A stretch of DNA of 50,698 nucleotides, taken from positions 1-50,698 of IMG/VR virus record IMGVR_UViG_3300036770_005835. One strand, given 5' to 3'. The first letter of the stretch is position 1. Every line of letters begins with the position of its first letter. The position numbers and the translations under genes were made by a program. Of the stretch, positions 4,536 to 50,511 are shown piece after piece. The DNA is from a virus. The notes beneath the pieces are model-generated. The model was not told the DNA's origin, did no database searches, and worked only from the letters and a program-made list of their open reading frames with translations.

Positions 4536-6911
4536 ATGGAAAAAGTATCTAGTAAATCTATTGTTAGTGTGCCTAATAAAGCCAAAATTAGGGTCGTATG
4601 GGAGGATAATCCAGAGAATTACACACAAGAAAGGTCTAAAAGAATTGCAAAATATATTGTTGAAAAATATAATAACCCTAACGTACAAGTTGTTTTTAAA
4701 CCAAAAAAAGTTACAACTGAAAATGGTGAGGTAGAAATGACTGTTGCTGATAATTTAATGGATGTTAATTACCAAAGAAGGTTATTTAAAGAATGGTTAA
4801 ACAACAGTAATATTGAGGTCGATTGGGAACGTCTTTTACGTTTAGATGATAAAGTTAATGAAAAACTTTCACAACAAAGAGATACTGATTATAGATATAG
4901 AAATTGGTATGTTAAGGAATTAGAGTGGTCTAACTTCCTTTCTTATGGTGACGGTAATAAAATATCTTTTAAAGAACTAGAGGGTATTACTGTGATTACC
5001 TCAGACCCACTTAACATGGGTGGTAAAACAACCTTAGCTTTAGACTTATTATTGTTCCTGTTTTTCAATACAACTACTAAGGGTAGTACTGCCATTAAAA
5101 TGTTTAATTTGTTTAGGGACAAGGACGAAGTTTCTGTTAAAGGTAAAATCGCTATAGATGGTGTTGACTATATTATAGAAAGAATAGTTACTAGAAAATT
5201 AAAAAGAGGTGGTAATGAATATAATACAAGAACTGACCTTTATTTTTACAGAATTTTACCTGATAACACAATAGAAAATCTTGAGGGTGAACAAAGAAGA
5301 GAGACAGAAGAATTTATAAAAAAATCTATTGGTTCTGTTGATGATTTTTTATTGACCATTATAGCTGATGCTGATAACCTAGAGGACATTATTCATACAA
5401 AACCAACAGAGAAGGGTAGGATATTATCTAGATTTATTGGATTAGAGATTATTGAGGATAAAGAAAATATTGTTAAGGAGATGAAATCTTCTTGGGCGAA
5501 AGGTTTAAAATCTGACCTATATAATATAACAGATCTATCCAACGAAATAGAAGATTTAAAAAACAATATACAAGAAAAAAGTAAAACTATTTTAGAAAAT
5601 GAAATAGAAATTAAAAGTTTAGTATCTAGCATAGAATCATCTGTAGAAAAAAAAGAAACTTTAATATCTAAAAAAGTTGAGATAGATGGTGAGGTTATAA
5701 ATCTTAGACCTGAGGATATCGATAGAGAGGTTAATGATATAACTGAAAAGGGTAAGAAGAAAAAAGAAGATTATGATAAGGCTAAGGAATCCTTTGAGGG
5801 AATGACTGAACCTGTATATGATGAAGACTTACATAAAGAGTTTGTAAAACAAGAACGTGATTTAAGTTTAGAGGTTGAGAAAACAAAAAACAAAATAAAA
5901 GAAACCCAGTCAAGAATTAAAAACTTAGAGGAAGGTGAATTTTGTTCTTTATGTAAACAACCCTTGGCTGACGTGGACCACTCAGAAGAAATTGAAGAAA
6001 ACAAAAATAACCTTAATACTTTAGGTTCAGATTTACTTTCTTTAGGGGAAAAACTTGCTGAAGTTAGTTCTTTGGTTAAAGAACAGGATACAATTAAATC
6101 TTCTGTTTCTGAGTATGATAGAGCTTCATTGGTTGTGACTAAATTAGAGTTAGATTTAGAAAAGTTAAGAATAGAAAGAAGAGAAAAACTAGACCTCAAA
6201 AAAAGATATGAAGACAACATAGGTAACATAGAAAAGAATAAAGAATTAGATAGTAAAATCTTGGGTTACAACGCTAAAATATCTAACTTAGAATTAGAAA
6301 AAACCAATAAAATTAAATTAGGTGAAAGATTAGAAAATGAAATAGGACAACACCAAACCCAAATAAACAAAAATGAGGAATACATTAAAACAATAAAGGC
6401 TGAAGAAGAGATAAAAATAATTTTTGAAGTCTACCAAAGAATGGTTGGTAAGAATGGTATTATTAAAATAATAATGAAAAGTGTTATGCCTTTAATTAAT
6501 TCTGAATTAGATAGACTACTAATTGATACCGCCCCATTTAAACTTGAGGTGGATATAAATGACAAAAAAGAAGTTGAGTTCTTAATAATAAAAGAAAATG
6601 AAAACGGTGAAACAATAAAATATCCTATTACTGAAGGTAGTGGTTTTGAGAAAACCGTTTCATCTTTAGCTCTACGTTGTGTTATGTCTAAGGTCAGTTG
6701 TTTACCTAAACCAAACATAATTGTTTTTGATGAAGTTTTGGGTAAAGTAGCCAATACTAACCTAGAATTGGTAGGAAACTTCTTTCAGAAATGTTCAGAA
6801 ATGTTCCCTAATATCTTTATTATAACACACAATGAAATTGTTAGAGATTGGGCTACTAAAATTATAACTATAAACAAAAAAAATAATATTTCTTCACTGG
6901 TTATTAAATAA
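4536..6911 (+). CDS. SbcC/T4 gp46-like SMC ATPase, recombination subunit
   Basis: 791 residues with the Rad50/SbcC layout. After about 125 extra N-terminal residues comes LSYGDGNKISF, then a Walker A (DPLNMGGKTT, near 156-165), a long coiled coil interrupted by a zinc hook (CSLC near 469), a second coiled coil, an ABC signature (SEGSG-like, here EGSGFEKTVSSLALR, near 700-712), Walker B (IIVFDEVLG, near 727-735) and an H-loop (IITHNE, near 764). It should pair with the gp47-like nuclease to process DNA ends. The N-terminal extension before the first strand is longer than usual for gp46 and may be a phage-specific domain. Confidence 0.9.
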   Translation: MEKVSSKSIVSVPNKAKIRVVWEDNPENYTQERSKRIAKYIVEKYNNPNVQVVFKPKKVTTENGEVEMTVADNLMDVNYQRRLFKEWLNNSNIEVDWERLLRLDDKVNEKLSQQRDTDYRYRNWYVKELEWSNFLSYGDGNKISFKELEGITVITSDPLNMGGKTTLALDLLLFLFFNTTTKGSTAIKMFNLFRDKDEVSVKGKIAIDGVDYIIERIVTRKLKRGGNEYNTRTDLYFYRILPDNTIENLEGEQRRETEEFIKKSIGSVDDFLLTIIADADNLEDIIHTKPTEKGRILSRFIGLEIIEDKENIVKEMKSSWAKGLKSDLYNITDLSNEIEDLKNNIQEKSKTILENEIEIKSLVSSIESSVEKKETLISKKVEIDGEVINLRPEDIDREVNDITEKGKKKKEDYDKAKESFEGMTEPVYDEDLHKEFVKQERDLSLEVEKTKNKIKETQSRIKNLEEGEFCSLCKQPLADVDHSEEIEENKNNLNTLGSDLLSLGEKLAEVSSLVKEQDTIKSSVSEYDRASLVVTKLELDLEKLRIERREKLDLKKRYEDNIGNIEKNKELDSKILGYNAKISNLELEKTNKIKLGERLENEIGQHQTQINKNEEYIKTIKAEEEIKIIFEVYQRMVGKNGIIKIIMKSVMPLINSELDRLLIDTAPFKLEVDINDKKEVEFLIIKENENGETIKYPITEGSGFEKTVSSLALRCVMSKVSCLPKPNIIVFDEVLGKVANTNLELVGNFFQKCSEMFPNIFIITHNEIVRDWATKIITINKKNNISSLVIK

Positions 6912-24592: not shown

Positions 24593-25522
24593 ATGAAAGA
24601 ATATTATGACATTTTAGGGTTAAATCAAGGATCTAGTCAAGAAGATATAAAAAAAGCGTATCGTAAACTTTCTAAAGAATACCACCCAGATTTAAACCCA
24701 GACAATAAAGAAGCAGAGGAAAAATTTAAAAAAGTTGTTGAGGCTTACGAAGTTTTAACAGGTAAACAAAAACCTAAACAACAAAACCCATTTGGAGGTA
24801 ATCCTTTTGGTGGTAATAGGGTTTACAAAGCTTCCGCTTTAAAATTGGTTTTAGAGATAACAATCGAAGAATCTTTTCACGGTAAAGAAAAAAACATTAA
24901 CTACTTTATAGATGATGTTTGCTCTAAATGTGATGGTGATGGTGGACATGAACCTGTTACATGTAATCAATGTGGTGGTAACGGTCACCTACAACAAGGA
25001 CCATTTGTTTTTATGTGTCATAATTGTAATGGTAAAGGTAGAGTCTTCAAAAAAGTTTGTTATACGTGCCAAGGAAAAGGAAATGTAAAAAAACAAAAAA
25101 ATATAACAATTAAAATACCTAGGGGTATAATTGAAGGAGAAGTATATCCTATAGCTGGAATCGGTAATAACATTAAAAATGGTGTTACAGGTGACGTTTA
25201 TTTTGTTATAAAAATAAAAGAACATAAAGTTTATACACTTGAAGGACTTAATTTAAAAAGAAAATTGGATATACCATTTTTAGATATTTTATTAGGTACT
25301 GAGAAGGAATTTGATACTCTAGATGGGACTGTTAGAATAAAAATACCTAAACTATCAGAGATGAATAAAACCTTTAGACTTAAAGGAAAGGGATTTTTTG
25401 ACGAACACTCAAATATAACAGGAGATATGTATGTAACATTAAACCCAATCCTACCAAAAGAATTAAATAGTGTTGAAGAAGATAAATTAAGGCAATTAAA
25501 ATCGTTGCCTAATTTTAGTTAG
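24593..25522 (+). CDS. dnaJ: DnaJ (Hsp40) co-chaperone
   Basis: 309 residues. J domain in residues 1-65 with the HPD triad in [11 protein letters not shown], a short glycine/asparagine-rich linker, then four zinc-finger repeats of the CxxCxGxG type ([32 protein letters not shown]), and the C-terminal substrate-binding domains. It is shorter than bacterial DnaJ (about 370) because the linker is reduced. No DnaK is in the window, so it would recruit the host DnaK, perhaps to replication or capsid assembly. Confidence 0.93.
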
Positions 25523-25539
25523 GCATATTTATAATTAAG

Positions 25540-26748
25540 ATGAAAAACGAAAAGATTATAAATGAGATAATGGGGGTACCTAAATCACTAGATCCTTGGG
25601 TAGAGGCCTTTTATCAAATAATTAAATATCAAATAGAATCAGAAATTAGCGGTGGTTGGGAGTACGAGGGTAGTATGCAATATAAGGACCCTGAAACTAA
25701 CGAAATTGTTGATGATGTGGCCAAAAAAACTGACGAAATAATAATACCTGGTAATGAAGTAATGGATGAGTTGATGGGTTTACTTGGATTTAATGATTTA
25801 AAGGAGTTTATTAAATCTGAGTTATTCTCAACTTTACCTATATGGAGACCTGAAATAACACTTTCTATTGTTGGTATACCTAATGTCGCATATGAAATGG
25901 AGAAAGGTAACCCAATTGAGGCTTCTGTTAATAGTAAAATGGGTCACGAACTAAGCCATGTAGGTAAAATTGTTGTTTTTTCTAATCTAATATATGATTT
26001 TAGTGTTGTTATGCCTGTAGATGGTATAACTAAAAAATTTGAATCTGATTTAAAATCTACAATAGCACACGAACTATTACACACACATCAGATGTTTAAA
26101 CAGTTAGAAAAAGGTAAACCGTCTCACCACGGTAAAGAAACTATGTTAAATACATTGACACAGATACCGGCATTAAATCAAATTGAATTAAACAGTTGGC
26201 GAAAATTTTTACATTTAGTTTATGTACACCTTTCTTTTGAAATAAATGCTAGAGTAGTTGAACTATACCATAAGTTCAAGGGGATGGGTATAAATACTAA
26301 AGAAGAGTTTTTAAAAGAATTAAAAAATACCCATATATGGAAGTATACAAAAGAACTTGAGAATTTTAGTGCTGAAGACTTTATAAAATCTTTTGAGTTA
26401 CCTTCTACTAAATTAGATTTTGGTAATTCAAATCCTTTTGAAATGTTACATAAGTTATTAACAGGTCAAACAGACTTAGAGATGTTAAAACGTAGGGGTA
26501 TAGATGTTAGTTCTGAAAATGAGGCTTTAAAATCTTTAATAAATATTTGGGATTTAATATTACAAGCCGGAAATGAAGAATTAAAAAATAATACTGGTAT
26601 TGATTTTGATATGATGCCTGTACCAGAAAACGCTAAACAAGATCCATACTTGTTTTTTAAATTTTTTGAAAAGAGATTCCATAAAAAGGCTGAAAAATGG
26701 AAAAGAAAGTTATATAGACTATCTGCAATTCTTTTAGAAGAAAATTAA
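25540..26748 (+). CDS. putative zinc metalloprotease-like protein
   Basis: 402 residues opening MKNEKIINEIMGVPKSLDP. An HExxH motif with a third histidine nearby (AHELLHTHQMF, near residues 176-186) is the key feature, and it follows a strand-rich region. The C-terminal half is helical. MNEKIINEIMGVP-type openings occur on phage proteins tied to the virion. It may be a virion-borne protease, but the protease family is not recognised and metal binding alone does not prove activity. Confidence 0.55.
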   Translation: MKNEKIINEIMGVPKSLDPWVEAFYQIIKYQIESEISGGWEYEGSMQYKDPETNEIVDDVAKKTDEIIIPGNEVMDELMGLLGFNDLKEFIKSELFSTLPIWRPEITLSIVGIPNVAYEMEKGNPIEASVNSKMGHELSHVGKIVVFSNLIYDFSVVMPVDGITKKFESDLKSTIAHELLHTHQMFKQLEKGKPSHHGKETMLNTLTQIPALNQIELNSWRKFLHLVYVHLSFEINARVVELYHKFKGMGINTKEEFLKELKNTHIWKYTKELENFSAEDFIKSFELPSTKLDFGNSNPFEMLHKLLTGQTDLEMLKRRGIDVSSENEALKSLINIWDLILQAGNEELKNNTGIDFDMMPVPENAKQDPYLFFKFFEKRFHKKAEKWKRKLYRLSAILLEEN

Positions 26749-28147: not shown

Positions 28148-28176
28148 TTGACAAAACATAAAATAGATACTATACT
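28148..28176 (+). promoter_or_regulatory. classical sigma-70-like promoter (TTGACA-N17-TATACT)
   Basis: TTGACA at 28148-28153 and TATACT at 28171-28176 are spaced by 17 bases, the textbook E. coli arrangement, and unlike the TAnnTTTG sites elsewhere in this window. It precedes the operon of the small acidic protein, the Ro60-like protein and the large RNA. Confidence 0.55.
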
Positions 28177-28196
28177 TAACCAACAAATAAAAAAAT

Positions 28197-28445
28197 ATGA
28201 AAATTAGAATGACAAGGTCTTATAGTGTTTGGGAATCTTATGGGGCTATTGAAATTAACCCTGAAGATTATCCTGAATTGGAGGGAATGTCTGAAGAAGA
28301 GATTATTGACTATCTTAATGAAAATATGTTTGAATTTGAATTAAAAGGTAGTTCAGAAAGTAATTTGGCCGACGAATTTATGTTTAACGTGGGCATCATC
28401 AAGGACAAACAAAACGAAGAAGAATTTGAAATAGTACTTGACTAA
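28197..28445 (+). CDS. small acidic protein upstream of the Ro60-like gene
   Basis: 82 residues, highly acidic, mixed alpha/beta (KIRMTRSYSVWESYGAIEINPEDY). Only 42 bases separate it from the Ro60-like gene and no terminator lies between, so the two are probably co-transcribed. No known family; a partner or regulator of the next protein is a contextual guess. Confidence 0.65.
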   Translation: MKIRMTRSYSVWESYGAIEINPEDYPELEGMSEEEIIDYLNENMFEFELKGSSESNLADEFMFNVGIIKDKQNEEEFEIVLD

Positions 28446-28487
28446 GATTAAAAAAATTAATAGTTTTAAAAAATAAAATAAAAAATT

Positions 28488-29924
28488 ATGTCACGATTAA
28501 TGGAAGCTTTACAAACAGAGAACACAACTACTAAAAATGGGATGACTACAAATTCATCTTCATTAAATGAGTGTGTTAACTTGTTTTTCTCTATCGGAGC
28601 GATGAGAGGTAAGAATAAAGAGACTATCATCTCCTTGTTCTCCAAGGCTTTCAATGAAAACCCTAGAACAGCAATGAGAATCCTTTTTTGGTCGAGAGAC
28701 GTAAGAGAAGGTGCAGGTGAAAGACAAATCTTTAGAGATGTTCTTAATTATTTGGTAACAAATCACCCTCAAGCAGTTAAGGCTAATCTTGATTTAATTC
28801 CTGAGTATGGAAGATGGGATGACATACACGGACTATTCGGAACCGAATTAGAGGGTGATGCTATCTCACTTCTTGTACAAGGGTTGAAAGATGCGAACGG
28901 TTTGACAGCGAAATGGATGCCAAGAAAAGGTTTAGTATTTAACAAGGTACGTAAATCTTTAAAGGTAACCCCAAAAGAGTTGAGAAAACTAATTGTTTCA
29001 TTATCCAACACTGTTGAACAAAAAATGTGTTCAAAAAGATGGGAAGAGATTGAATACCCAAAGACACCATCTTTGGCTATGTCAAGATACGGTAAAGCTT
29101 TTGGTCGTAATGACGGTGAAAGATTTACTCAATTCATTGAGTCTTTGAAAAAAGGTGAGGTGAAGGTAAACGCGGGAGCATTGTATCCGTATGACGTTAC
29201 TAAAAATCTTAGATTTGGTGGCAATAAAGATTTGGCTAATGAACAGTGGAAAGCACTTCCAAATTGGATGGAGGGTTCTGACGAACTGATTTTACCTATG
29301 GTCGACGTTTCAGGTTCAATGGGGGTCGCTGTAGGGGGCAACGCAAACCTTACATGTATGGAGGTAGCCATTTCTTTGGGTATGTATATCTCTGAAAGAA
29401 ATGAGGGGGCATTTAAAGATATGTTTATGACATTTTCTTCTACTCCTCAGATTCAAAAACTGTTAGGTCCTTTAAGTGACCGATACGGACAACTAGCTAG
29501 AGCTGACTGGGGGATGTCTACTAATTTGGAGTCGGCTTTTAAAACCATCCTAAATCAGGCGGTTAAATTTAATATCCCACAGAGTGAGATGCCAACTAAG
29601 GTATTAATCCTAAGTGATATGGAATTCGACCACGCTACTGGTGGTGGTTGGAGAAATGAGTCTGATTGGAACCCATCAGCAATGTCTATGATTGATGAGA
29701 TGTTCACTAACGCTGGTTATGAAAGACCTGGAATCATATTCTGGAACTTGAACGCCAACGGGGGTAACTTCCCTACACGTTTCGATGAAATGGGAACTTG
29801 TATGGTTAGTGGATTTTCTCCATCAATTATGAAATCTATCATTTCTAATCCTGATAGTTTAACACCTATCAACATTATGAATGAAACTGTTAATTCAGAA
29901 AGATACGAACCTGTTACAGTCTAG
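28488..29924 (+). CDS. Ro60-like RNA-binding protein (DUF2828/TROVE-vWA type)
   Basis: 478 residues. The N-terminal 250 are helical repeats with TROVE-like signatures: FFSIGAMRGKNKETIISLF, RDVREGAGERQIFRDVL, LDLIPEYGRWDDIHGLF and WMPRKG. The C-terminal part is a von Willebrand A domain with an intact MIDAS start (PMVDVSGSM, DxSxS), a later threonine (GMSTNLESAF) and LILSDMEFD. Ro60 uses this fold to hold Y RNAs and misfolded RNAs, often with the RNA gene next door. Here a boxA and a large structured RNA begin 44 bases after the stop. Codon use is less AT-biased than in the neighbours, suggesting strong expression or separate origin. Confidence 0.85.
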   Translation: MSRLMEALQTENTTTKNGMTTNSSSLNECVNLFFSIGAMRGKNKETIISLFSKAFNENPRTAMRILFWSRDVREGAGERQIFRDVLNYLVTNHPQAVKANLDLIPEYGRWDDIHGLFGTELEGDAISLLVQGLKDANGLTAKWMPRKGLVFNKVRKSLKVTPKELRKLIVSLSNTVEQKMCSKRWEEIEYPKTPSLAMSRYGKAFGRNDGERFTQFIESLKKGEVKVNAGALYPYDVTKNLRFGGNKDLANEQWKALPNWMEGSDELILPMVDVSGSMGVAVGGNANLTCMEVAISLGMYISERNEGAFKDMFMTFSSTPQIQKLLGPLSDRYGQLARADWGMSTNLESAFKTILNQAVKFNIPQSEMPTKVLILSDMEFDHATGGGWRNESDWNPSAMSMIDEMFTNAGYERPGIIFWNLNANGGNFPTRFDEMGTCMVSGFSPSIMKSIISNPDSLTPINIMNETVNSERYEPVTV

Positions 29925-29940
29925 AACCTATAGGTGATGA

Positions 29941-29955
29941 AAGATACTCGGTATC
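29941..29955 (+). other. small hairpin between Ro60-like gene and boxA
   Basis: AGATAC, a TCG loop and GTATCT form a perfect 6-bp hairpin at about 29942-29956, 17 bases after the stop codon. It has no T run, so it is not a terminator; it could protect or process the mRNA end upstream of the large RNA. Confidence 0.5.
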
Positions 29956-29967
29956 TAGATTGTTAAA

Positions 29968-29983
29968 GTTCTTTGAAATATTG
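29968..29983 (+). promoter_or_regulatory. boxA-like antitermination element
   Basis: GTTCTTTGAAATATTG matches the element found ahead of both tRNA arrays here (40815, 49415) and resembles the boxA-like sequence of Bacteroidota rRNA leaders and spacers (compare E. coli GCTCTTTAACA). It would load a Nus antitermination complex for the long untranslated RNA that follows. Confidence 0.65.
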
Positions 29984-29984
29984 T

Positions 29985-30509
29985 GGTATTAAAGAATAAT
30001 TGCAGCAAATTTAAAAAACATAAATTCAAGCTACATGGAAGAGGGGCTTTGATATCCCCACTTAACTACAAGGGTGTAAAGGTGAAAGCCGGGGACCACT
30101 CACGGTTAGGTAAAAAGAGTCAAACGATTCTGTTACCACAACAATATTAAGGTGTAAAGGGTACGTCAAACGAGACTAAAAGGCCCAACAAACGAATGGT
30201 TTCTGCAACTAATTTCTATGATCTACAAGTTGAACAGAAAGGGGTTTTATCACTTTACCTCAAATTAAATTATAAAGTGGCGACCATAGGGGAGTTTAAA
30301 CGTGGGAAAATCCCACACTTGAGGTCGTAAAACATACCTCTTGGTTATCTCAAGTAAAATAGATAGTTGGGTTTGTCTCAATTAAAAATAAGACACTCAG
30401 TGGGGCTGAGTTAAAAATCTACCATGGGGACGGTCATCATGTAAAATAAAAGCCGAACCACCATTCCGACACCAAAAATTAAAGGGAGATAAATTCTCCC
30501 TTTTTTTTT
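29985..30509 (+). ncRNA. large structured noncoding RNA (about 525 nt)
   Basis: No plausible gene covers this stretch, and it is richer in G than the surroundings. Helices seen by eye: GGTAA/TTACC (30109/30133) around GAGTC/GATTC; TTTCTG+CAACT (30200-30210) with AGTTG+CAGAAA (30228-30240); CACTTTA/TAAAGTG (30251/30273); GTGGGA/TCCCAC (30302/30311); GAGGT/ACCTC (30321/30336); GTCT/AGAC (30375/30391) next to ACTCAG/CTGAGT (30395/30406), both inside TAGAT/ATCTA (30360/30417). CCTCAA in the loop at 30258 can pair with TTGAGG at 30319, a possible pseudoknot. GGTGTAAAGG occurs twice (30073, 30151). Size and phage setting recall GOLLD/ROOL-type RNAs; identity to either is not shown. Confidence 0.75.
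30481..30509 (+). terminator. strong terminator of the large RNA
   Basis: AAAGGGAG (30481-30488) pairs with CTCCCTTT (30496-30503) and runs into nine T. It defines the 3' end of the structured RNA. Confidence 0.9.
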
Positions 30510-30554: not shown

Positions 30555-31340
30555 ATGAAATATTTTTTTGAGATTAAAGAAGTAGATAAAAATTTAGCAA
30601 TAGAGTTTATTCAAGAAAGACATTATTCCAAAGTTTTGCCTAGATTAACCAAACATTGGTTGGGTTGTTTTTATAAAGAGGAATTAGTTGGGGTACTAAC
30701 ATTGGGTTGGGGTACACAACCTCTACAAACAATAAAAAAATTATTCCCTGATTTAAAATCAGAGGATTATTATGAAATAGGTAAAATGTGTATGGATGAA
30801 AAAATGCCTAGGAATTCAGAATCTCAAATGATATCTTCTGTTGTTAGATGGATGAAACAAAATTTACCTGAAAAAAAATTTTTGTACACATGGGCTGATG
30901 GGATTGTAGGTAAAGTGGGTTACGTGTATCAGGCTTCTAACTTTTACTATGGTAATTTTATTTGGACCGACATTTATATTTCACCTAGTGGGGAAAAAAT
31001 ACATCCTAGGAGTTCAAAGGCTTTATTACAAGAAAATGCTAAATTTTTAGGGAAAGACAAATTATTTTGGATGACCCCTGATTTCATGGAGTTAAAGGGT
31101 ATACGTAGGATAAGGGGTAAACAATTTAGATACATATATCCATTAAATAAAAAGGCTAAAGAAAGTTTAAGAAGAGAGTCTACGGTTAATTGGAATAGGG
31201 TGTATCCTAAAGAGGGTGATTTACAATGGAAAGAACAAAAAAGTAAGGGTGAATACAGACTATTATTAGGTAAACCTGAAATGGATTTAAGTATTGTAGA
31301 ATTTAATGAAAAAAATGTTAATGCACATAAGAAGATTTAA
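30555..31340 (+). CDS. Mom-like DNA-modification (GNAT-fold) protein
   Basis: 261 residues. The core reads AIEFIQERHYSK, WLGCFYKEELVGVLTLG, YYEIGKMCMDEKMPRNSES and WADGIVGKVGYVYQASNFYY. The chain H-Y near 23-24, E-I/L-x-[KR]-[ML]-x, P-x-N-[ST]-x-S and G-x-x-Y-Q-A-x-N-F-x-Y is that of the phage Mu Mom family, which adds a methylcarbamoyl group to adenine N6 and blocks restriction. It begins 45 bases after the large RNA terminator. A second family member is at 35510. Target base and chemistry in this phage are unknown. Confidence 0.75.
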   Translation: MKYFFEIKEVDKNLAIEFIQERHYSKVLPRLTKHWLGCFYKEELVGVLTLGWGTQPLQTIKKLFPDLKSEDYYEIGKMCMDEKMPRNSESQMISSVVRWMKQNLPEKKFLYTWADGIVGKVGYVYQASNFYYGNFIWTDIYISPSGEKIHPRSSKALLQENAKFLGKDKLFWMTPDFMELKGIRRIRGKQFRYIYPLNKKAKESLRRESTVNWNRVYPKEGDLQWKEQKSKGEYRLLLGKPEMDLSIVEFNEKNVNAHKKI

Positions 31341-35509: not shown

Positions 35510-36235
35510 ATGAAAAGTATTGAAAGCTTTATAAATAGGGAAGTAAAGGCGAAAGAAATCTTTTATTTAAAAGAAGTCCAAAAGTCTGAGGCTTACGAAT
35601 TTGTTAAAACTTATCACTATTTAGGTGATGCCAAATTTTTTGCTAAATTTTCATATGCTTTAATCCATAAAGAAACCGACAATATTGTGGGTGTGGCAAC
35701 TTTTTCTAACCCACAAGGTAATGTGGCCCTTAAAGGTTGGTTCGGTTTACCTAATACAGACCAAACTGTTTTAGAATTATCTAGACTTTGTGTTTTACCT
35801 GAATTAAACGGTACTAACGCTACATCTTATTTATTAGGTGGTTCTATTAGATTATTAAAGAAAGAAGGGATACGTGCAGTTATCACATTAGCTGATGACA
35901 GTAGACACAGTGGGAGCATTTATCAAGTCTGTAATTTTACCTATTACGGTTTGACCGACAAGAAATCTGATTTCTTTAGGTGGGACGGAAAAGTTAACCC
36001 AAGAGGTTCTACAAAGGAAGTTCAAGGAGTGTGGATTAATAGAACAAGAAAACATCGATATGCTTATATTATAGATAAATCTTTAATTTGTAATTATAAA
36101 GAAGAACCCAAACCCCAAAAAGGAGATACCAATGAATATGATTGTTGTGGTGGTACAAAACAAGTTTACGATAATAGATTTAATAAATGGTATTCTTGCC
36201 CTAAATGTGATGAAATAGCTGAATTAGCTTTCTAA
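35510..36235 (+). CDS. second Mom-like DNA-modification protein with zinc ribbon
   Basis: 241 residues. GNAT-like core with the Mom-family chain: FVKTYHYLGDAKFF, ELSRLCVLPELNGTNATSY, ALITLADDSRHSG-like (AVITLADDSRHSG) and IYQVCNFTYYG, then FRWDGKVNPRG. Unlike the copy at 30555 it ends with a small zinc ribbon (EYDCCGGTKQVY, SCPKC). The two copies are only distantly alike, so they may act on different targets or one may be regulatory. Anti-restriction is the likely role. Confidence 0.75.
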   Translation: MKSIESFINREVKAKEIFYLKEVQKSEAYEFVKTYHYLGDAKFFAKFSYALIHKETDNIVGVATFSNPQGNVALKGWFGLPNTDQTVLELSRLCVLPELNGTNATSYLLGGSIRLLKKEGIRAVITLADDSRHSGSIYQVCNFTYYGLTDKKSDFFRWDGKVNPRGSTKEVQGVWINRTRKHRYAYIIDKSLICNYKEEPKPQKGDTNEYDCCGGTKQVYDNRFNKWYSCPKCDEIAELAF

Positions 36236-40802: not shown

Positions 40803-40814
40803 CAGAAAGAAAAA

Positions 40815-40830
40815 GTTCTTTGAAATATTG
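40815..40830 (+). promoter_or_regulatory. boxA-like antitermination element in array 1
   Basis: GTTCTTTGAAATATTG, after the first tRNA and 14 bases before the second. Same element as at 29968 and 49415; likely lets polymerase read through the structured array. Confidence 0.65.
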
Positions 40831-41700: not shown

Positions 41701-41791
41701 TGATTGGGGAATGATAACATCCATAACATGAGAGTGTATATCGGTTGATGTTATCGGAGTTGGGAGATATACACCTAAGTAAAGCCAATCA
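41701..41791 (+). ncRNA. pseudoknotted RNA closed by a 7-bp acceptor-like stem
   Basis: TGATTGG (41701-41707) pairs perfectly with CCAATCA (41785-41791). Inside, ATAACATC (41714-41721) pairs with GATGTTAT (41747-41754) and GTGTATATC (41734-41742) with GATATACAC (41766-41774). The two helices (8 and 9 bp, no mismatches) interleave, so this is an H-type pseudoknot. There is no T arm or anticodon arm. It starts four bases after the HNH stop. Confidence 0.75.
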
Positions 41792-41793
41792 TA

Positions 41794-41826
41794 AAAGGGG
41801 ATGTCCACGCAACCATCTTCCCCTTT
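41794..41826 (+). other. stem-loop before tRNA-Tyr
   Basis: AAAGGGGATG pairs with CATC-TT-CCCCTTT (two-base bulge) around a ten-base loop. No long T run follows, so it is more likely a processing or spacing structure than a terminator. Confidence 0.5.
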
Positions 41827-41835
41827 CCTTATCTT

Positions 41836-41919: not shown

Positions 41920-41932
41920 CAAAATGTTTGAA

Positions 41933-41991
41933 GGAAGATTTCAGCAAATTAAAAAAATCAAAAGCGGAAATTTGAAAACAAAATGTCTTCC
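41933..41991 (+). ncRNA. 59-nt RNA with 7-bp closing stem and TTCAGCAA motif
   Basis: GGAAGAT (41933-41939) pairs with GTCTTCC (41985-41991; one T-G pair). Then TTCAG, a second helix CAAATT (41945-41950)/AATTTG (41969-41974), and an A-rich strand AAAACAAAAT leading back to the closing stem. Same plan as the element at 50438-50498. Not a tRNA: no T arm and too short. Confidence 0.65.
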
Positions 41992-42005
41992 TGTACATTT
42001 TATCC

Positions 42006-42154: not shown

Positions 42155-42157
42155 CAA

Positions 42158-42270
42158 GTGTGAAAGGGTTAGGTGATGGGTTAATGGTCTGAAACTACTT
42201 ATACTAGTTTGTAGAGAAAAGAAGAGGATTAACCATGTAACCTTTCGTGTGGGTTCAAGTCCCACCACAC
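42158..42270 (+). ncRNA. tRNA-like RNA: T arm and acceptor, long hairpin instead of D/anticodon arms
   Basis: GTGTG (42158-42162) pairs with CACAC (42266-42270) and a normal T arm precedes it (GTGGG, loop TTCAAGT, CCCAC). Between lies one long hairpin: GAAAGGGTT/AACCTTTC (42162/42239, one bulge), GGTTAA/TTAACC (42179/42229), AAACTA/TAGTTT (42192/42205) with loop CTTATAC. No D arm is recognisable. The terminal arm would read as UAU anticodon if it is one. The layout recalls the tRNA-like domain of tmRNA joined to a long helix, without the message part. Confidence 0.6.
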
Positions 42271-42333
42271 AAAAATAAAACAGTTTGAAACTTGGCTACC
42301 GTTCTGTTAATTAAAAACGTTGGGCCTTGACTA

Positions 42334-42489: not shown

Positions 42490-42550
42490 CTTGGAACTTT
42501 TATACCTACTTGACATATTAATATTGGGTGGATAAGAGGAAGAAAAATAA

Positions 42551-42618
42551 AATAGTTATTTCTCGTTAAAAGATGGTCATACAGACCCACGGAGGTCGAG
42601 TCAACATCAATAACTATT
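42551..42618 (+). ncRNA. 68-nt hairpin RNA with 10-bp closing stem
   Basis: AATAGTTATT (42551-42560) is a perfect complement of AATAACTATT (42609-42618). Inside, GATG/CATC and GACC/GGTC form further pairs. It sits in the 130-base gap between tRNA-Gln and tRNA-His. Not a tRNA; role unknown. Confidence 0.55.
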
Positions 42619-42622
42619 ATAT

Positions 42623-44101: not shown

Positions 44102-44665
44102 TTATTTTATTAAAACAACATGACCCATTTCCAATACACGTTCATCGTTTTTAATGACTTTGAACTCTATTTTCCATGTATAAACACCATCTTGACAAGA
44201 AAAATCACCATACTTACCATTCCATCCTTTTGACATATCGTAACTTTCAAAAACAATTTCACCCCATCTATTAAAAATAGTTAAGTGGTAATTATATGGG
44301 TCAACCCCTGTGGTAAAAATAGGTATGAAAGATTGGTTAAAATTATCACCATCGGGTGTGAAAGCATTTGGTACAAAGTATATTGGTTCATCACATTTAG
44401 TCACATTTACTGTATAAGATTGTGGTAATGACGGACAACCATCATTAATTCTTATAACATTTATAACATATGTACCAGTATCAGACCATGTCATTACAAG
44501 GTCTTCAGTGTAAAAATATTGACCGTTAACCTCCCACTGATTAGTCCCTACGTCATCTGATGATGTAGAATAGGTAAATGTCACACTTTCTTCACCACAA
44601 AGTTCTATATTTTGTTGTGAAAGAGTGAAAAAAGGTAATAACAATATGACCCACCAAAATCTCAT
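44102..44665 (-). CDS. secreted protein with T9SS type B (CHU_C) sorting domain
   Basis: 187 residues. Signal peptide (RFWWVILLLPFFTLSQQ), one Ig/PKD-like domain (about 22-90), then a full gliding-motility-associated C-terminal domain: YFVPNAFTPDGDNFNQSF, HLTIFNRWGEIVFES, GWNGKY, QDGVYTWKIEF and GHVVLIK. This domain directs T9SS export and surface attachment in Bacteroidota. Its start overlaps the previous stop (TAATG). It is a compact version of host adhesins. Confidence 0.88.
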   Translation of the reverse strand: MRFWWVILLLPFFTLSQQNIELCGEESVTFTYSTSSDDVGTNQWEVNGQYFYTEDLVMTWSDTGTYVINVIRINDGCPSLPQSYTVNVTKCDEPIYFVPNAFTPDGDNFNQSFIPIFTTGVDPYNYHLTIFNRWGEIVFESYDMSKGWNGKYGDFSCQDGVYTWKIEFKVIKNDERVLEMGHVVLIK

Positions 44666-45228
44666 TAGTTATGTTGTATTGGTGATAATACTGGTTGTGA
44701 GTTAACTGTTACTGAAGTTGTTGTAGAGAATGTACAACCATTTTGTGTTACAGTATAAGTAATTGTGTTAGAGCCAATGTTGGCGTTTGCTGGACAGAAC
44801 TGATTTCCTGAAACACCAGGTCCTGAAAATGTCCCACCTGTTGGTGTACCTGTTAAAGTAACACAAGGTTCAGTACTACAAAAAGGGCCAAGAGCTGTAA
44901 TTGTAGGTATTATTTCTAATATAAAGACATTAAGGGTTATTGATGTTGATTGACAACCCGAAGCATTTGTGGCATAAACTGTAATACCATCTGTGATAAG
45001 GCCAGGTGAAGCCGAAGACCAATCAACGTTGATTGAGTTGGTTCCTTGACCCGAAACTAAAGTACCTGGTGAGGTAACAGACCATGTATAGGTGTAACCC
45101 ACACCTAGTGAAGGTACTGAATATGTAGAACCGGCTGTTTGATAACAAACTGTGTCAGGGTTAACTGTTGATTGACCAAAAACAACAGAAGAAACCAAAA
45201 TTGTTAGGATAGTTAATAACTTTTTCAT
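44665..45228 (-). CDS. secreted Ig-like domain protein
   Basis: 187 residues. Signal peptide (KKLLTILTILVSSVVFGQ) then two PKD/Ig-like beta domains (YTYTWSVTSPGTLVSGQG; TALGPFCSTEPCVTLTGTPTGGTFSGPGVSG). It lacks a sorting domain and ends LSPIQHN, resembling the end of the next protein upstream (GNITHN). It may need its neighbours for export or work as a secreted subunit. Confidence 0.75.
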   Translation of the reverse strand: MKKLLTILTILVSSVVFGQSTVNPDTVCYQTAGSTYSVPSLGVGYTYTWSVTSPGTLVSGQGTNSINVDWSSASPGLITDGITVYATNASGCQSTSITLNVFILEIIPTITALGPFCSTEPCVTLTGTPTGGTFSGPGVSGNQFCPANANIGSNTITYTVTQNGCTFSTTTSVTVNSQPVLSPIQHN

Positions 45229-45230
45229 AA

Positions 45231-46199
45231 TTAATTGTGTGTAATGTTACCCACGTTAAATTGTGTGGGTTGAGTTATGGTTACACTTCCTGTTGAAGTG
45301 CATCCGTTTTGTGTGACCGTAACGGTATAAGTTCCCGGACATAGATTAGATATTGTTTGAGTGTTTAACCCATTTGACCATGAATAAGATGAACCTACTA
45401 CACCGGCACTTGCTGTTCCATTACAAAGACCAAAACAAGTAACGTTTGTTGATGTTGGTGCAACTGTTGATGAATTAACTGTAATTGTTGTCGTACTAAC
45501 AGATTGACAAGGTGCTTGACCTAAAGTATAAGTTATGGTGTGGGTGCCAACCCCGGCAGTTGACGGGTTAAATAAACCTGTTGATGAGACCCCAGGTCCT
45601 GACCATGTACCACCCATATTAACTGATTGTAATTGAGTTGTGGGTGAGGTAGTACAAAAAGGGCCAACAGGTGTTATTGTTGTACTCGGTGGTCCTGTCT
45701 GTGCACTTGGTGGTGGGGCTAATTGTAAAGTAAAATTTGTTGATGGTCCGTTCATCCAATCCTCAACAACTATCATAAGAACTTGACCTGCTACAACATT
45801 GGGTGCAGGAGAATTACTAGTACAAGGGAATGAAGTCCCAAATTGATTACACCCACTTGAGGTTTGTGCATAACTACAACCAATTTGGTTTGCGTTATTT
45901 TGAATGGCTGTACATGGTGCAACACCCGAAGGTATGTTGAAGACAGCTACATCTAAATAACCCGTAGCACCATTACCATCAATATATAAATTAAGGGGAC
46001 CAGATTGTGTAATATATAAAACAATATAAGCAAATCTTGAGGACCCCACCCAATCTAAACAAGTACTAACTGCTGGACCACCATTACCAAAAGTAAAAGG
46101 TCCAGCTGTACCTGAAGTACAAATGGTATTATTAGTATTACACTGTGTAAAACTATTACTCAAAAATAATGTAAGTATTATTGTTATTAAAAACCTCAT
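45231..46199 (-). CDS. secreted protein with SprB-type repeat
   Basis: 322 residues. Signal peptide (RFLITIILTLFLSNSFTQC), an N-terminal domain to about 165, a PKD-like domain (TPVGPFCTTSPTTQLQ; GGTWSGPGVSSTGLF) and a SprB repeat (TNVTCFGLCNGTASAGV, YSWSNGLNTQTISNLCPGTYTVTVT). SprB is the mobile surface adhesin of flavobacterial gliding. No sorting domain; ends FNVGNITHN. First gene of the leftward cassette, with ATATTTATTA directly upstream on its strand. Confidence 0.82.
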   Translation of the reverse strand: MRFLITIILTLFLSNSFTQCNTNNTICTSGTAGPFTFGNGGPAVSTCLDWVGSSRFAYIVLYITQSGPLNLYIDGNGATGYLDVAVFNIPSGVAPCTAIQNNANQIGCSYAQTSSGCNQFGTSFPCTSNSPAPNVVAGQVLMIVVEDWMNGPSTNFTLQLAPPPSAQTGPPSTTITPVGPFCTTSPTTQLQSVNMGGTWSGPGVSSTGLFNPSTAGVGTHTITYTLGQAPCQSVSTTTITVNSSTVAPTSTNVTCFGLCNGTASAGVVGSSYSWSNGLNTQTISNLCPGTYTVTVTQNGCTSTGSVTITQPTQFNVGNITHN

Positions 46200-46285: not shown

Positions 46286-48046
46286 ATGACAAGAACATTT
46301 AAAATATCTCTACTATTATCACTAACCTTAATGATAATTTTATTTACGACCCAATCACTATTAATAATTAATATTATGGGTCATATAGATAAGATAGGTT
46401 ATTTGGGTTATGCTATAATATTTTCATTATTTCCAACCATAGGTACTTTCATTTATGAATATATTAAAAAAAATAAGTACATAAAAAATAAAAACATTTA
46501 TAATAAAAAATTAGATAACACACTTAACTCACAATTACATAATAATTTATTTTATGAGGGTAATCTAAATGATGGTGCTAAAGTTTTAACCAAAGAAGTT
46601 ACCCAAACAATGGATGTTGATAGATGTTCAATATGGTTATACAATGAAGACAAAACCTCAATAATATGTCAACAACTATATATTAAAGATGAAGATTCTT
46701 GGTACCAAGACATTATATTAAGTAAAAAAGATTTTAAAAATTATTTTTTAGCTTTAAGTGACAACCCTGTAATAGTAGCAAATGATGCTAAAAATCATCC
46801 GGCAACTTCTTGTTTTAATGAAACCTATTTAACCCCGCTTGGTATCAAATCGATGTTAGATGTACCCATAACTTATAAAGGTGATGTTATAGGTGTTTTA
46901 TGTGTTGAAAGTTTAAAACAAAGGGTGTGGGTAGAAGATGAAATAAACTTCACTCAAATGTTATCTGCTTTATACAGTTTTACTTATTCGGTTAAAGAAA
47001 ATTATATTGTAACAAAAAATATAAAAGATATTGAATCATTTGTTGACCATTCCGTACTTGTAAGTAAAGCAGATAAATATGGTAAAATAACTTATGTTAA
47101 CAAAAAATTTGAGGATGTATCGGGGTGGAAATTAAAAGATGCTATGGGTAAAGATCATAATATTGTTAATTCCGGTTATCATCCGAAGGAATATTGGAGA
47201 AAAATGTATGAAATTGTGGTTAAAAAGAAAAAAATATGGAATGATGTTGTAACAAACAAAACTAAAAATGGTGATTTGTATTGGGTTGATTCATATATAA
47301 AAGCAGAATTTGACCCAACTACAGATGAATTAATTGGGTTTATGTCAATAAGGTATGATGTGACGGAACTTATGAAAAAAACCCAAGAGATAGAAAAAAA
47401 GAACACATATCTGGAACATGCCGCAAAAATATTACGACATGATATGCATTCAGGAATCAATACTTATATACCAAGGGGTATATCATCATTAGAAAGAAGG
47501 TTAAATGAAGAAGACATAAAGAGATTAAAAATAGAGTCTCCCTTAAGGATGATAAAAGAAGGTTTATTACACTCACAAAAAGTTTATAGAGGTGTTTTTG
47601 AATTTACCAATCTAGTTAAGAAAGATGTTGTTTTAAATAAGGTTGAATGTGATCTTAAAAAGATCTTAGAATCTTATCTTTCTACTACAGCATATAAATC
47701 ACAAGTTAAAATAGATTCATTAACAACGATAGAAGTTAATGAACCCCTGTTTTGTACCGCAATAGATAATTTAATTAGAAATGGTTTAAAATATAATGAT
47801 AGCGATAGTAAATTCGTTCATATTTATATTGAGGACTGTAACTTAGTAGTCCAAGATAATGGTAGAGGTTTAACCCAAGAAGAATTTAATATGTTATCAC
47901 AACCTTATAAAAGAAAAGAAGGTCAAAAAGAATCTGGTACGGGTTTAGGTTTGAATATATGTTTAGCTATATTAAATGAACATAAATTTAATGTTTCTTG
48001 TGAAAAAAATAATATTGGTACAAAAATTAAAATTAAATTAAATTAA
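46286..48046 (+). CDS. membrane sensor histidine kinase (GAF-PAS)
   Basis: 586 residues. Two N-terminal membrane helices (about 7-30 and 40-60), a GAF domain (about 90-230; DVDRCSIWLYNEDKTS, GVLCVESLKQ), a PAS domain with PAC (about 250-360; KITYVNKKFEDVSGW), a phospho-acceptor helix with H in LRHDMHSG, and a HATPase with DNLIRNGLKYND, QDNGRGLT and GTGLGLNICLA. All catalytic boxes look intact. It is followed 5 bases later by a receiver protein. A sensor kinase encoded by a phage is unusual. Confidence 0.9.
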   Translation: MTRTFKISLLLSLTLMIILFTTQSLLIINIMGHIDKIGYLGYAIIFSLFPTIGTFIYEYIKKNKYIKNKNIYNKKLDNTLNSQLHNNLFYEGNLNDGAKVLTKEVTQTMDVDRCSIWLYNEDKTSIICQQLYIKDEDSWYQDIILSKKDFKNYFLALSDNPVIVANDAKNHPATSCFNETYLTPLGIKSMLDVPITYKGDVIGVLCVESLKQRVWVEDEINFTQMLSALYSFTYSVKENYIVTKNIKDIESFVDHSVLVSKADKYGKITYVNKKFEDVSGWKLKDAMGKDHNIVNSGYHPKEYWRKMYEIVVKKKKIWNDVVTNKTKNGDLYWVDSYIKAEFDPTTDELIGFMSIRYDVTELMKKTQEIEKKNTYLEHAAKILRHDMHSGINTYIPRGISSLERRLNEEDIKRLKIESPLRMIKEGLLHSQKVYRGVFEFTNLVKKDVVLNKVECDLKKILESYLSTTAYKSQVKIDSLTTIEVNEPLFCTAIDNLIRNGLKYNDSDSKFVHIYIEDCNLVVQDNGRGLTQEEFNMLSQPYKRKEGQKESGTGLGLNICLAILNEHKFNVSCEKNNIGTKIKIKLN

Positions 48047-49408: not shown

Positions 49409-49414
49409 TATTTA

Positions 49415-49430
49415 GTTCTTTGACATATTG
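49415..49430 (+). promoter_or_regulatory. boxA-like antitermination element of array 2
   Basis: GTTCTTTGACATATTG, ten bases before the first tRNA of the array. Same element as at 29968 and 40815. Confidence 0.7.
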
Positions 49431-49523: not shown

Positions 49524-49537
49524 CAAAATGATATTAA

Positions 49538-49660
49538 AGAATTGTTACAGCAATTTTATATCTTAGCCTTGTAAGCTCGTGGTCGTGGGTTCGAGTCCCA
49601 CTCGGTCCTTCGGGGCCGATAGCTCAGTGGGTAGAGCACGAATAGAAAAAAAACAATTCT
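49538..49660 (+). tRNA. circularly permuted tRNA-Thr(UGU) in a flanking helix
   Basis: The 3' half comes first: GC, loop CTTGTAA, GCTCG, TGGTC, T arm (GTGGG TTCGAGT CCCAC) and acceptor TCGGTCC, at 49566-49608. Only four bases (TTCG) later comes the 5' half: acceptor GGGCCGA, TA, D arm GCTC...GAGC, A, CGA (49613-49641). The halves fit: 7-bp acceptor (one G-U) and anticodon stem CGAGC/GCTCG once CGA is joined to GC. Thus the acceptor is capped by a UUCG tetraloop. Outside, AGAATTGTT (49538-49546) pairs perfectly with AACAATTCT (49652-49660). TTACAGCAA is at 49545-49553. If joined, T73 matches the normal tRNA-Thr at 49834. Confidence 0.75.
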
Positions 49661-49673
49661 GTTATCATTAATT

Positions 49674-50315: not shown

Positions 50316-50489
50316 ATGAAAGTAGTGTTGGAGGGTAAATTAGATTCACACAGAGAAATTTTTAGAGGTAAAAAAAGTGAAAGTAAGTTGATTAAAAAAA
50401 TTAAAAGACTTAGAGTTAAGAAAAGAAAATATTTTAAGGGATTGTTTCAGCAAAAAACAGATCATCAAACTTTTAATTTGAACAGATAA
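50316..50489 (+). CDS. possible small basic ORF within array 2
   Basis: A 57-residue frame, very lysine/arginine-rich (KSESKLIKKIKRLRVKKRKY). It fills the 230-base gap between tRNA-Ala and tRNA-Gly, but its last third overlaps the structured element at 50438, so it may be chance. If real it may bind nucleic acid. Confidence 0.35.
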   Translation: MKVVLEGKLDSHREIFRGKKSESKLIKKIKRLRVKKRKYFKGLFQQKTDHQTFNLNR

Positions 50490-50498
50490 AGCAATCCC
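50438..50498 (+). ncRNA. 61-nt RNA with 7-bp closing stem and TTTCAGCAA motif
   Basis: GGGATTG (50438-50444) pairs perfectly with CAATCCC (50492-50498). Then TTTCAG, a helix CAAA/TTTG or TCAAA/TTTGA with loop CTTTTAA, and an A-rich strand (AACAGATAAAG) back to the stem. Same plan as the element at 41933-41991. The TCAAA-CTTTTAA-TTTGA arm looks like a tRNA-Lys anticodon arm, but there is no T arm. Confidence 0.65.
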
Positions 50499-50511
50499 GA
50501 ATTATTAATAA

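Follow-up and report, generated by a model that had tools for sequence, protein, structure and literature searches.

The window analysed here (positions 1 to 50,698 of the viral IMG/VR record IMGVR_UViG_3300036770_005835, 50,698 nucleotides) carries a unit, entirely on the plus strand, in which a sigma70-like promoter (TTGACA-N17-TATACT, 28148-28176), a small acidic open reading frame of 82 amino acids (28197-28445), a gene for a DUF2828+DUF7788 protein (28488-29924), a boxA-like motif (29967-29983), a long structured RNA (29983-30507) and an intrinsic terminator (30481-30507) follow one another; the features described below are likewise on the plus strand unless stated. The promoter reported by the initial annotation is present and is the single match to TTGACA-N16..18-TATANT in a pattern scan of the whole window, with similar sites at the equivalent place in relatives. 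In many of these relatives a promoter-like site lies about 70 nt 5' of the DUF2828 gene itself and the small acidic frame is absent between the two, and this frame, for which no match was found in Pfam or PHROG, is therefore considered optional. Its listing as a component of the unit holds for its presence in the window and not for its conservation, and the small acidic protein was rejected as a partner of the unit.

The product of the gene at 28488-29924 matches the Pfam families DUF7788 (E 7.6e-45) and DUF2828 (E 7.7e-36) and PHROG 850, described as 'RNA-binding protein', with no match to the Pfam TROVE sequence model, and a profile of the protein reached only E 0.031 against TROVE chains of the PDB. 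In a Foldseek search with an AlphaFold model built from 23 homologues (pLDDT 87.9, pTM 0.88), the best match was the TROVE protein 9kop (E 2.4e-9), followed by 1yvr, the Ro autoantigen Ro60 (E 1.7e-8). As these two were the only significant PDB matches (TM 0.53-0.58), the gene product is, by its predicted structure, a Ro60-fold protein that the Pfam TROVE model does not recognise. The MIDAS residues of its vWA domain (D273, S275, S277, T345 and D377, in the order DxSxS, T, D) are unchanged across 23 divergent homologues. The earlier label of a Ro60-like TROVE/vWA protein of the DUF2828 type is thus upheld by fold, family and intact MIDAS and fails by the Pfam TROVE model. Proteins of this type are present in 681 deposited phage records.

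The long RNA, of about 525 nt, begins 58 nt beyond the stop codon, in the orientation of the gene, and folds with a minimum free energy of -136.1 kcal/mol (z -2.86). It is preceded by the boxA-like sequence AGTTCTTTGAAATATTG and ends in a terminator whose covarying stem (30481-30503) is followed by a T run, both of which had been proposed from the sequence and are borne out. The boxA motif AGTTCTTTGAMATATTG occurs three times in the window (29967, 40814 and 49414) against 0.03 copies expected, once before the long RNA and otherwise within or before the two tRNA clusters; this placement suggests that the phage uses rRNA-type antitermination for its noncoding RNA. The copy at 40814-40830 lies between tRNA-Ile and tRNA-Asn of the first cluster, and that at 49414-49430 precedes the second. 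At 29925-29962, just after the stop codon, there is a degenerate repeat of the 3' end of the gene (GATGAAAGATACTCGGTATCTAG versus GAAAGATACGAACCTGTTACAGTCTAG), which is kept in several relatives and may be a scar of the arrival of the long RNA. Directly after the long RNA, one of two different Mom-family proteins of the window is encoded (30555-31340), the other being at 35510-36235.

By blastn and pattern scans the RNA was found in 26 other contigs, directly downstream of the DUF2828 gene each time, with the stretch examined in L063 and L071 carrying the 3' end of the gene alone; its linkage to the gene is strict. Pattern matches in L187, L189, L190 and L192, where there is no RNA or gene similarity and which are for that reason likely due to chance, were rejected, as were most matches of a wider contig search. 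In L212, L213, L214 and L191 the protein is 57-60% identical and the RNA 72-77% identical over the aligning part. When the RNAs of 15 relatives were aligned, 93.8% of cells could pair, changes on both sides were seen in 40 pairs (18.6 in shuffles), and compensatory cells numbered 97 (30.3 in shuffles). Sliding the partners by one column halved the pairing, a comparison that somewhat favours the true over the slid versions because the structure was derived from the same alignment. A large structured RNA at 29983-30507 is therefore confirmed. In the Rfam scans that had been recommended, no family, YrlA included, matched it, and GOLLD, ROOL and OLE gave no match at gathering or at E<=5, which removes the suggested membership in GOLLD or ROOL; among INPHARED phages there was no full-length DNA match.

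The long RNA contains two tandem copies of an element, here called the handle, which consists of a stem of 5-8 bp, the hexamer CAGCAA at a distance of exactly 10 nt from the outermost pair of that stem, and a 3' strand followed by G[U/A]. In handle 1 the 5' arm GUGGUA-UUAA-AGAAU (29983-29997) pairs with AUUCU-GU-UACCAC (30127-30139), CAGCAA (30003-30008) lies 10 nt from the outer pair and is invariant in the 15 relatives, and head 1 occupies 30009-30126. Both arms covary, with GUGGUA/UACCAC replaced by AUGGUA/UACCAU or GUGAUA/UAUCAC and AGAAU/AUUCU by GGAAU/AUUCC. In handle 2 the outer stem GGUGU (30151-30155) and the inner stem GAAUGGU, which is followed by UU and CUGCAA (30194-30208; CNGCAA in relatives), pair with the covarying 3' arm ACCAUUC-CG-ACACC (30460-30473), the outer stem with 30469-30473 and with a change from GGUGU/ACACC to GAUAU/AUAUC. 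Its head (30209-30459, about 250 nt) contains several covarying hairpins. Each copy departs somewhat from the general form: handle 1 has five pairs only and an A-U pair where most handles have G-C, and handle 2 has CUGCAA and, in the window, a C.C mismatch at the outer pair. The large heads have no match to any known tRNA part. Head 2 is shorter in L014, L015 and L191 and only about 36 nt long in L188; both handles fit within about 250 nt in L188 and about 280 nt in L020, and the longer versions measure about 430 nt in L191 and about 465 nt in L014 and L015. Since both handles recur with small heads in more distant relatives, the 525-nt RNA is a lineage-specific expansion of two tandem handles, with L191, L014 and L015 as intermediates. 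The initial annotation had suggested that it and the Ro-like protein would make a new type of RNP; the RNA is not of an unrelated new type and comprises two tandem Y-RNA-like handles with enlarged heads.

The handle is not confined to this lineage. A strict search of 30 largely non-redundant DUF2828 loci (371,589 bases) recovered 47 handles on the strand of the gene versus two on the other strand and 1.5 in shuffled sequence, and 13 other hexamers substituted in the same search gave seven matches for CTGCAA and zero to four for the rest. Among 43 compact handles, stem plus spacer equals 10 nt in 42 and the third pair is G-C in 41; the 3' strand is followed by G, which the construction of the search fixes, and then by U (33) or A (10). 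Most handles are single RNAs of 45-130 nt, found next to DUF2828 genes in phages that infect many different hosts. For instance, in complete genomes those found at the gene amount to 3/3 in Samty, 2/2 in Campylobacter CPX, 3/4 in Listeria P100, 2/2 in Enterococcus Porthos and 3/4 in Bacillus FADO; they adjoin the gene in Samty, P100, CPX and Porthos and are near it in FADO, whereas in Cronobacter S13 one handle is near the gene and the others are in the tRNA region. No handle was detected at the loci L034, L037 and L052 within the flanks examined. The phages T4, T5, SPO1 and phiKZ, which do not have DUF2828, yielded only scattered, mostly long-loop, chance-like matches, seven of them in T5, so that position and head size, and not the raw count per genome, are discriminating.

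These positions bear on a reading in which the long RNA serves autoregulation from the 3' UTR, with the Ro-like protein binding handles of its own mRNA to adjust stability or translation and with no function in trans. The RNA does follow the gene closely, in the same orientation and, in this lineage, always on its downstream side; however, the window also has this handle in its tRNA clusters, far away from the gene, and CPX and P100 have it on the upstream side of theirs, boxA marks the long RNA and the tRNA clusters alike, and head 2 is conserved far beyond what a binding site would need, which makes autoregulation an unlikely explanation. A protein-free, self-assembling ornate RNA, next to which the Ro-like gene is found by synteny, appears quite unlikely as well. 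Its size, ornate covarying helices and phage origin are shared with GOLLD, ROOL and OLE, which are likewise large and ornate, and GOLLD and ROOL are found in phages near tRNA islands, ROOL with no known protein partner (PMC12286853). Yet the long RNA matches none of the three in sequence or structure, these classes are without a known Ro-like handle, and the handle of which the long RNA has two copies is characteristic of DUF2828 loci from unrelated phages.

The heads of the smaller handle RNAs resemble parts of tRNAs. The tRNA clusters of the window contain three ordinary-sized handle RNAs, namely AGGAAGA-UUU-CAGCAA ... UCUUCCU-GU between tRNA genes (41932-41994), one with a head of the tRNA-Lys(UUU) anticodon stem-loop type, CAAA-CUUUUAA-UUUG (50438-50500), and a YrlA-like permuted tRNA (49530-49666). 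Twelve of 45 heads have an anticodon arm of 4 bp with the loop CUNNNAA (shuffle mean 0.35, maximum 3 in 500), including four with CUUUUAA (Lys) and two with CUGCUAA (Ser); other loop patterns gave zero or one match. In the permuted RNA the order is T arm, acceptor closed by UUCG, and D arm, the CUUGUAA anticodon loop is intact, and the handle has the UUAA/GU internal loop of handle 1; the two halves, if joined, would make a perfect tRNA-Thr(UGU). The Rfam YrlA model matches it at 49577-49642 with 44.1 bits, and other permuted examples include Porthos (45.9 bits, the best and full length), Samty (37.9) and L059 (31.8), all below the gathering threshold of 69; FADO and L047 also have permuted tRNAs. 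Weak matches of the same model in control genomes, which probably arise where tandem tRNAs resemble the module, make the enclosing handle important. In L039 and S13, handles are inserted within un-permuted tRNA genes near the junction of the D arm and the anticodon arm. For instance, at 5824-6066 of S13 (L081) two annotated over-long tRNAs of 121 and 113 nt each have a handle inside, with an identical CAAACT...AGTTTG hairpin and CAGCA 10 nt from its base.

Such arrangements would also be expected if CAGCAA/GU were a new splicing element, intron-like or circularising, whose permuted tRNA halves are ligated to circular or mature tRNAs, and in addition an RNA ligase and a protein annotated as a tRNA splicing ligase are encoded nearby in Listeria P100; this reading is nevertheless demoted to very improbable because many heads are an anticodon hairpin only, which cannot yield a tRNA, and one L039 handle encloses a whole tRNA-Ile, while the Samty head and one L039 head have no anticodon arm and bacterial Y RNAs share a similar stem with D/T/acceptor architecture (PMC8394870; Rfam YrlA consensus).

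The recurrence of the handle together with the tRNA-mimicking heads points to a phage Ro60/Y-RNA-type ribonucleoprotein, a reading to which we assign a probability of roughly two in three. The DUF2828-family protein, with its HEAT-like ring and vWA domain, would most likely grip the handle, and by analogy with Rsr and its Y RNA (PMC8394870) the stem may hold the protein while the head acts as effector. The heads of the small members, which copy anticodon stem-loops in some cases and a permuted D/T/acceptor body in others, would probably act on tRNA-directed enzymes, for instance anticodon or processing nucleases of the host, as a decoy or a tether. The long form probably arose when two adjacent handle RNAs were fused into one boxA-preceded, terminator-ended transcript with expansion of the heads, and the resulting 525-nt scaffold might accommodate two copies of the protein. 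YrlA has been suggested to act as a competitive inhibitor of an anticodon nuclease (PMC7790460), and the PARIS effector AriB, a host nuclease, cuts tRNA-Lys (PMC11455837). It is conceivable, and offered here tentatively as a conjecture we would sooner doubt than adopt, that DUF2828 phages deploy handle-tagged tRNA mimics, including isolated Lys, Ser, Thr and other anticodon stem-loops, as decoys that the protein shields and that divert host defences which cleave tRNA, with the 525-nt RNA as a multi-copy scaffold belonging to this class.

The phage system is like YrlA (RF02553) with Rsr/Ro60 in that the RNA is encoded beside the gene of a Ro60-fold protein, in that its two ends form a stem, which covaries here and is predicted to bind the protein, and in the tRNA-like D/T/acceptor module of permuted order. 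It differs in the handle consensus, YrlA having AUGCU ... AAACUUG where the handle has CAGCAA at 10-nt spacing and a 3' G[U/A]; in YrlA scores that stay below gathering; in the many heads that are anticodon stem-loops; and in a protein that is DUF2828 and not Pfam TROVE. The long RNA is also double-handled and about five times larger, at about 525 nt versus about 90-150 nt for bacterial Y RNAs, whereas the small handle RNAs measure 45-130 nt. Y RNAs encoded close to Ro60 were reportedly described for bacteria and mycobacteriophages by Chen in 2014, and phage Y RNAs beside Ro60 are already known. Seemingly new are the CAGCAA handle with its spacing, the anticodon-loop heads, the insertion of handles within tRNAs and the 525-nt form with its two handles. 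For the handle, its 10-nt spacing, the anticodon-loop heads and the double-handled form no description was found in Rfam or in the part of the literature that was searched, and some of these features may already be in print.

A further comparison is offered by the P100-like Listeria phage CKA15, whose putative Y RNAs accompany the same protein family as that of the window. According to the accessible portion of its published account (PMC12282133), the Ro-like homologue is present in virions (20 peptides, 57% coverage), highly transcribed noncoding regions lie <=2 kb from its gene, and noncoding transcripts by the tRNA cluster are proposed as Y RNAs; that portion gives no RNA structure or signature for them. 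Three unannotated handle RNAs are located at 25,290-25,552 of this genome, inside the 2-kb span. The most transcribed phage region given there (26,236-26,727, about 490 nt and noncoding) has no CAGCAA handle, and an identification of the handles with that abundant transcript was rejected.

The handle signature provides a concrete predicted binding site for the protein family found in the deposited phage records, and its RNA partners can be listed from sequence alone. Through the tRNA mimicry that the heads suggest, what phage Ro proteins and Y RNAs do, a long-standing question, becomes testable, for example against anticodon nucleases, and the size series shows an ordinary small RNA grown to 525 nt with intermediates still existing.

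Several further features were noticed. The spacers at 42155-42278, 41740-41830 and 42490-42620 in the tRNA clusters of the window look structured, and the first, which has a T arm and matching ends around a large insert, is perhaps an undetected modified tRNA. A group I intron match (51.5 bits) lies at 7125-7333 of L021, near the DUF2828 locus of a 464-kb phage. The window also encodes, at 44102-46199 (minus strand) and 46286-48046 (plus strand), proteins with CHU_C and PKD-like domains, which are typical of type IX secretion in Bacteroidota, and a GAF/PAS histidine-kinase-like protein.
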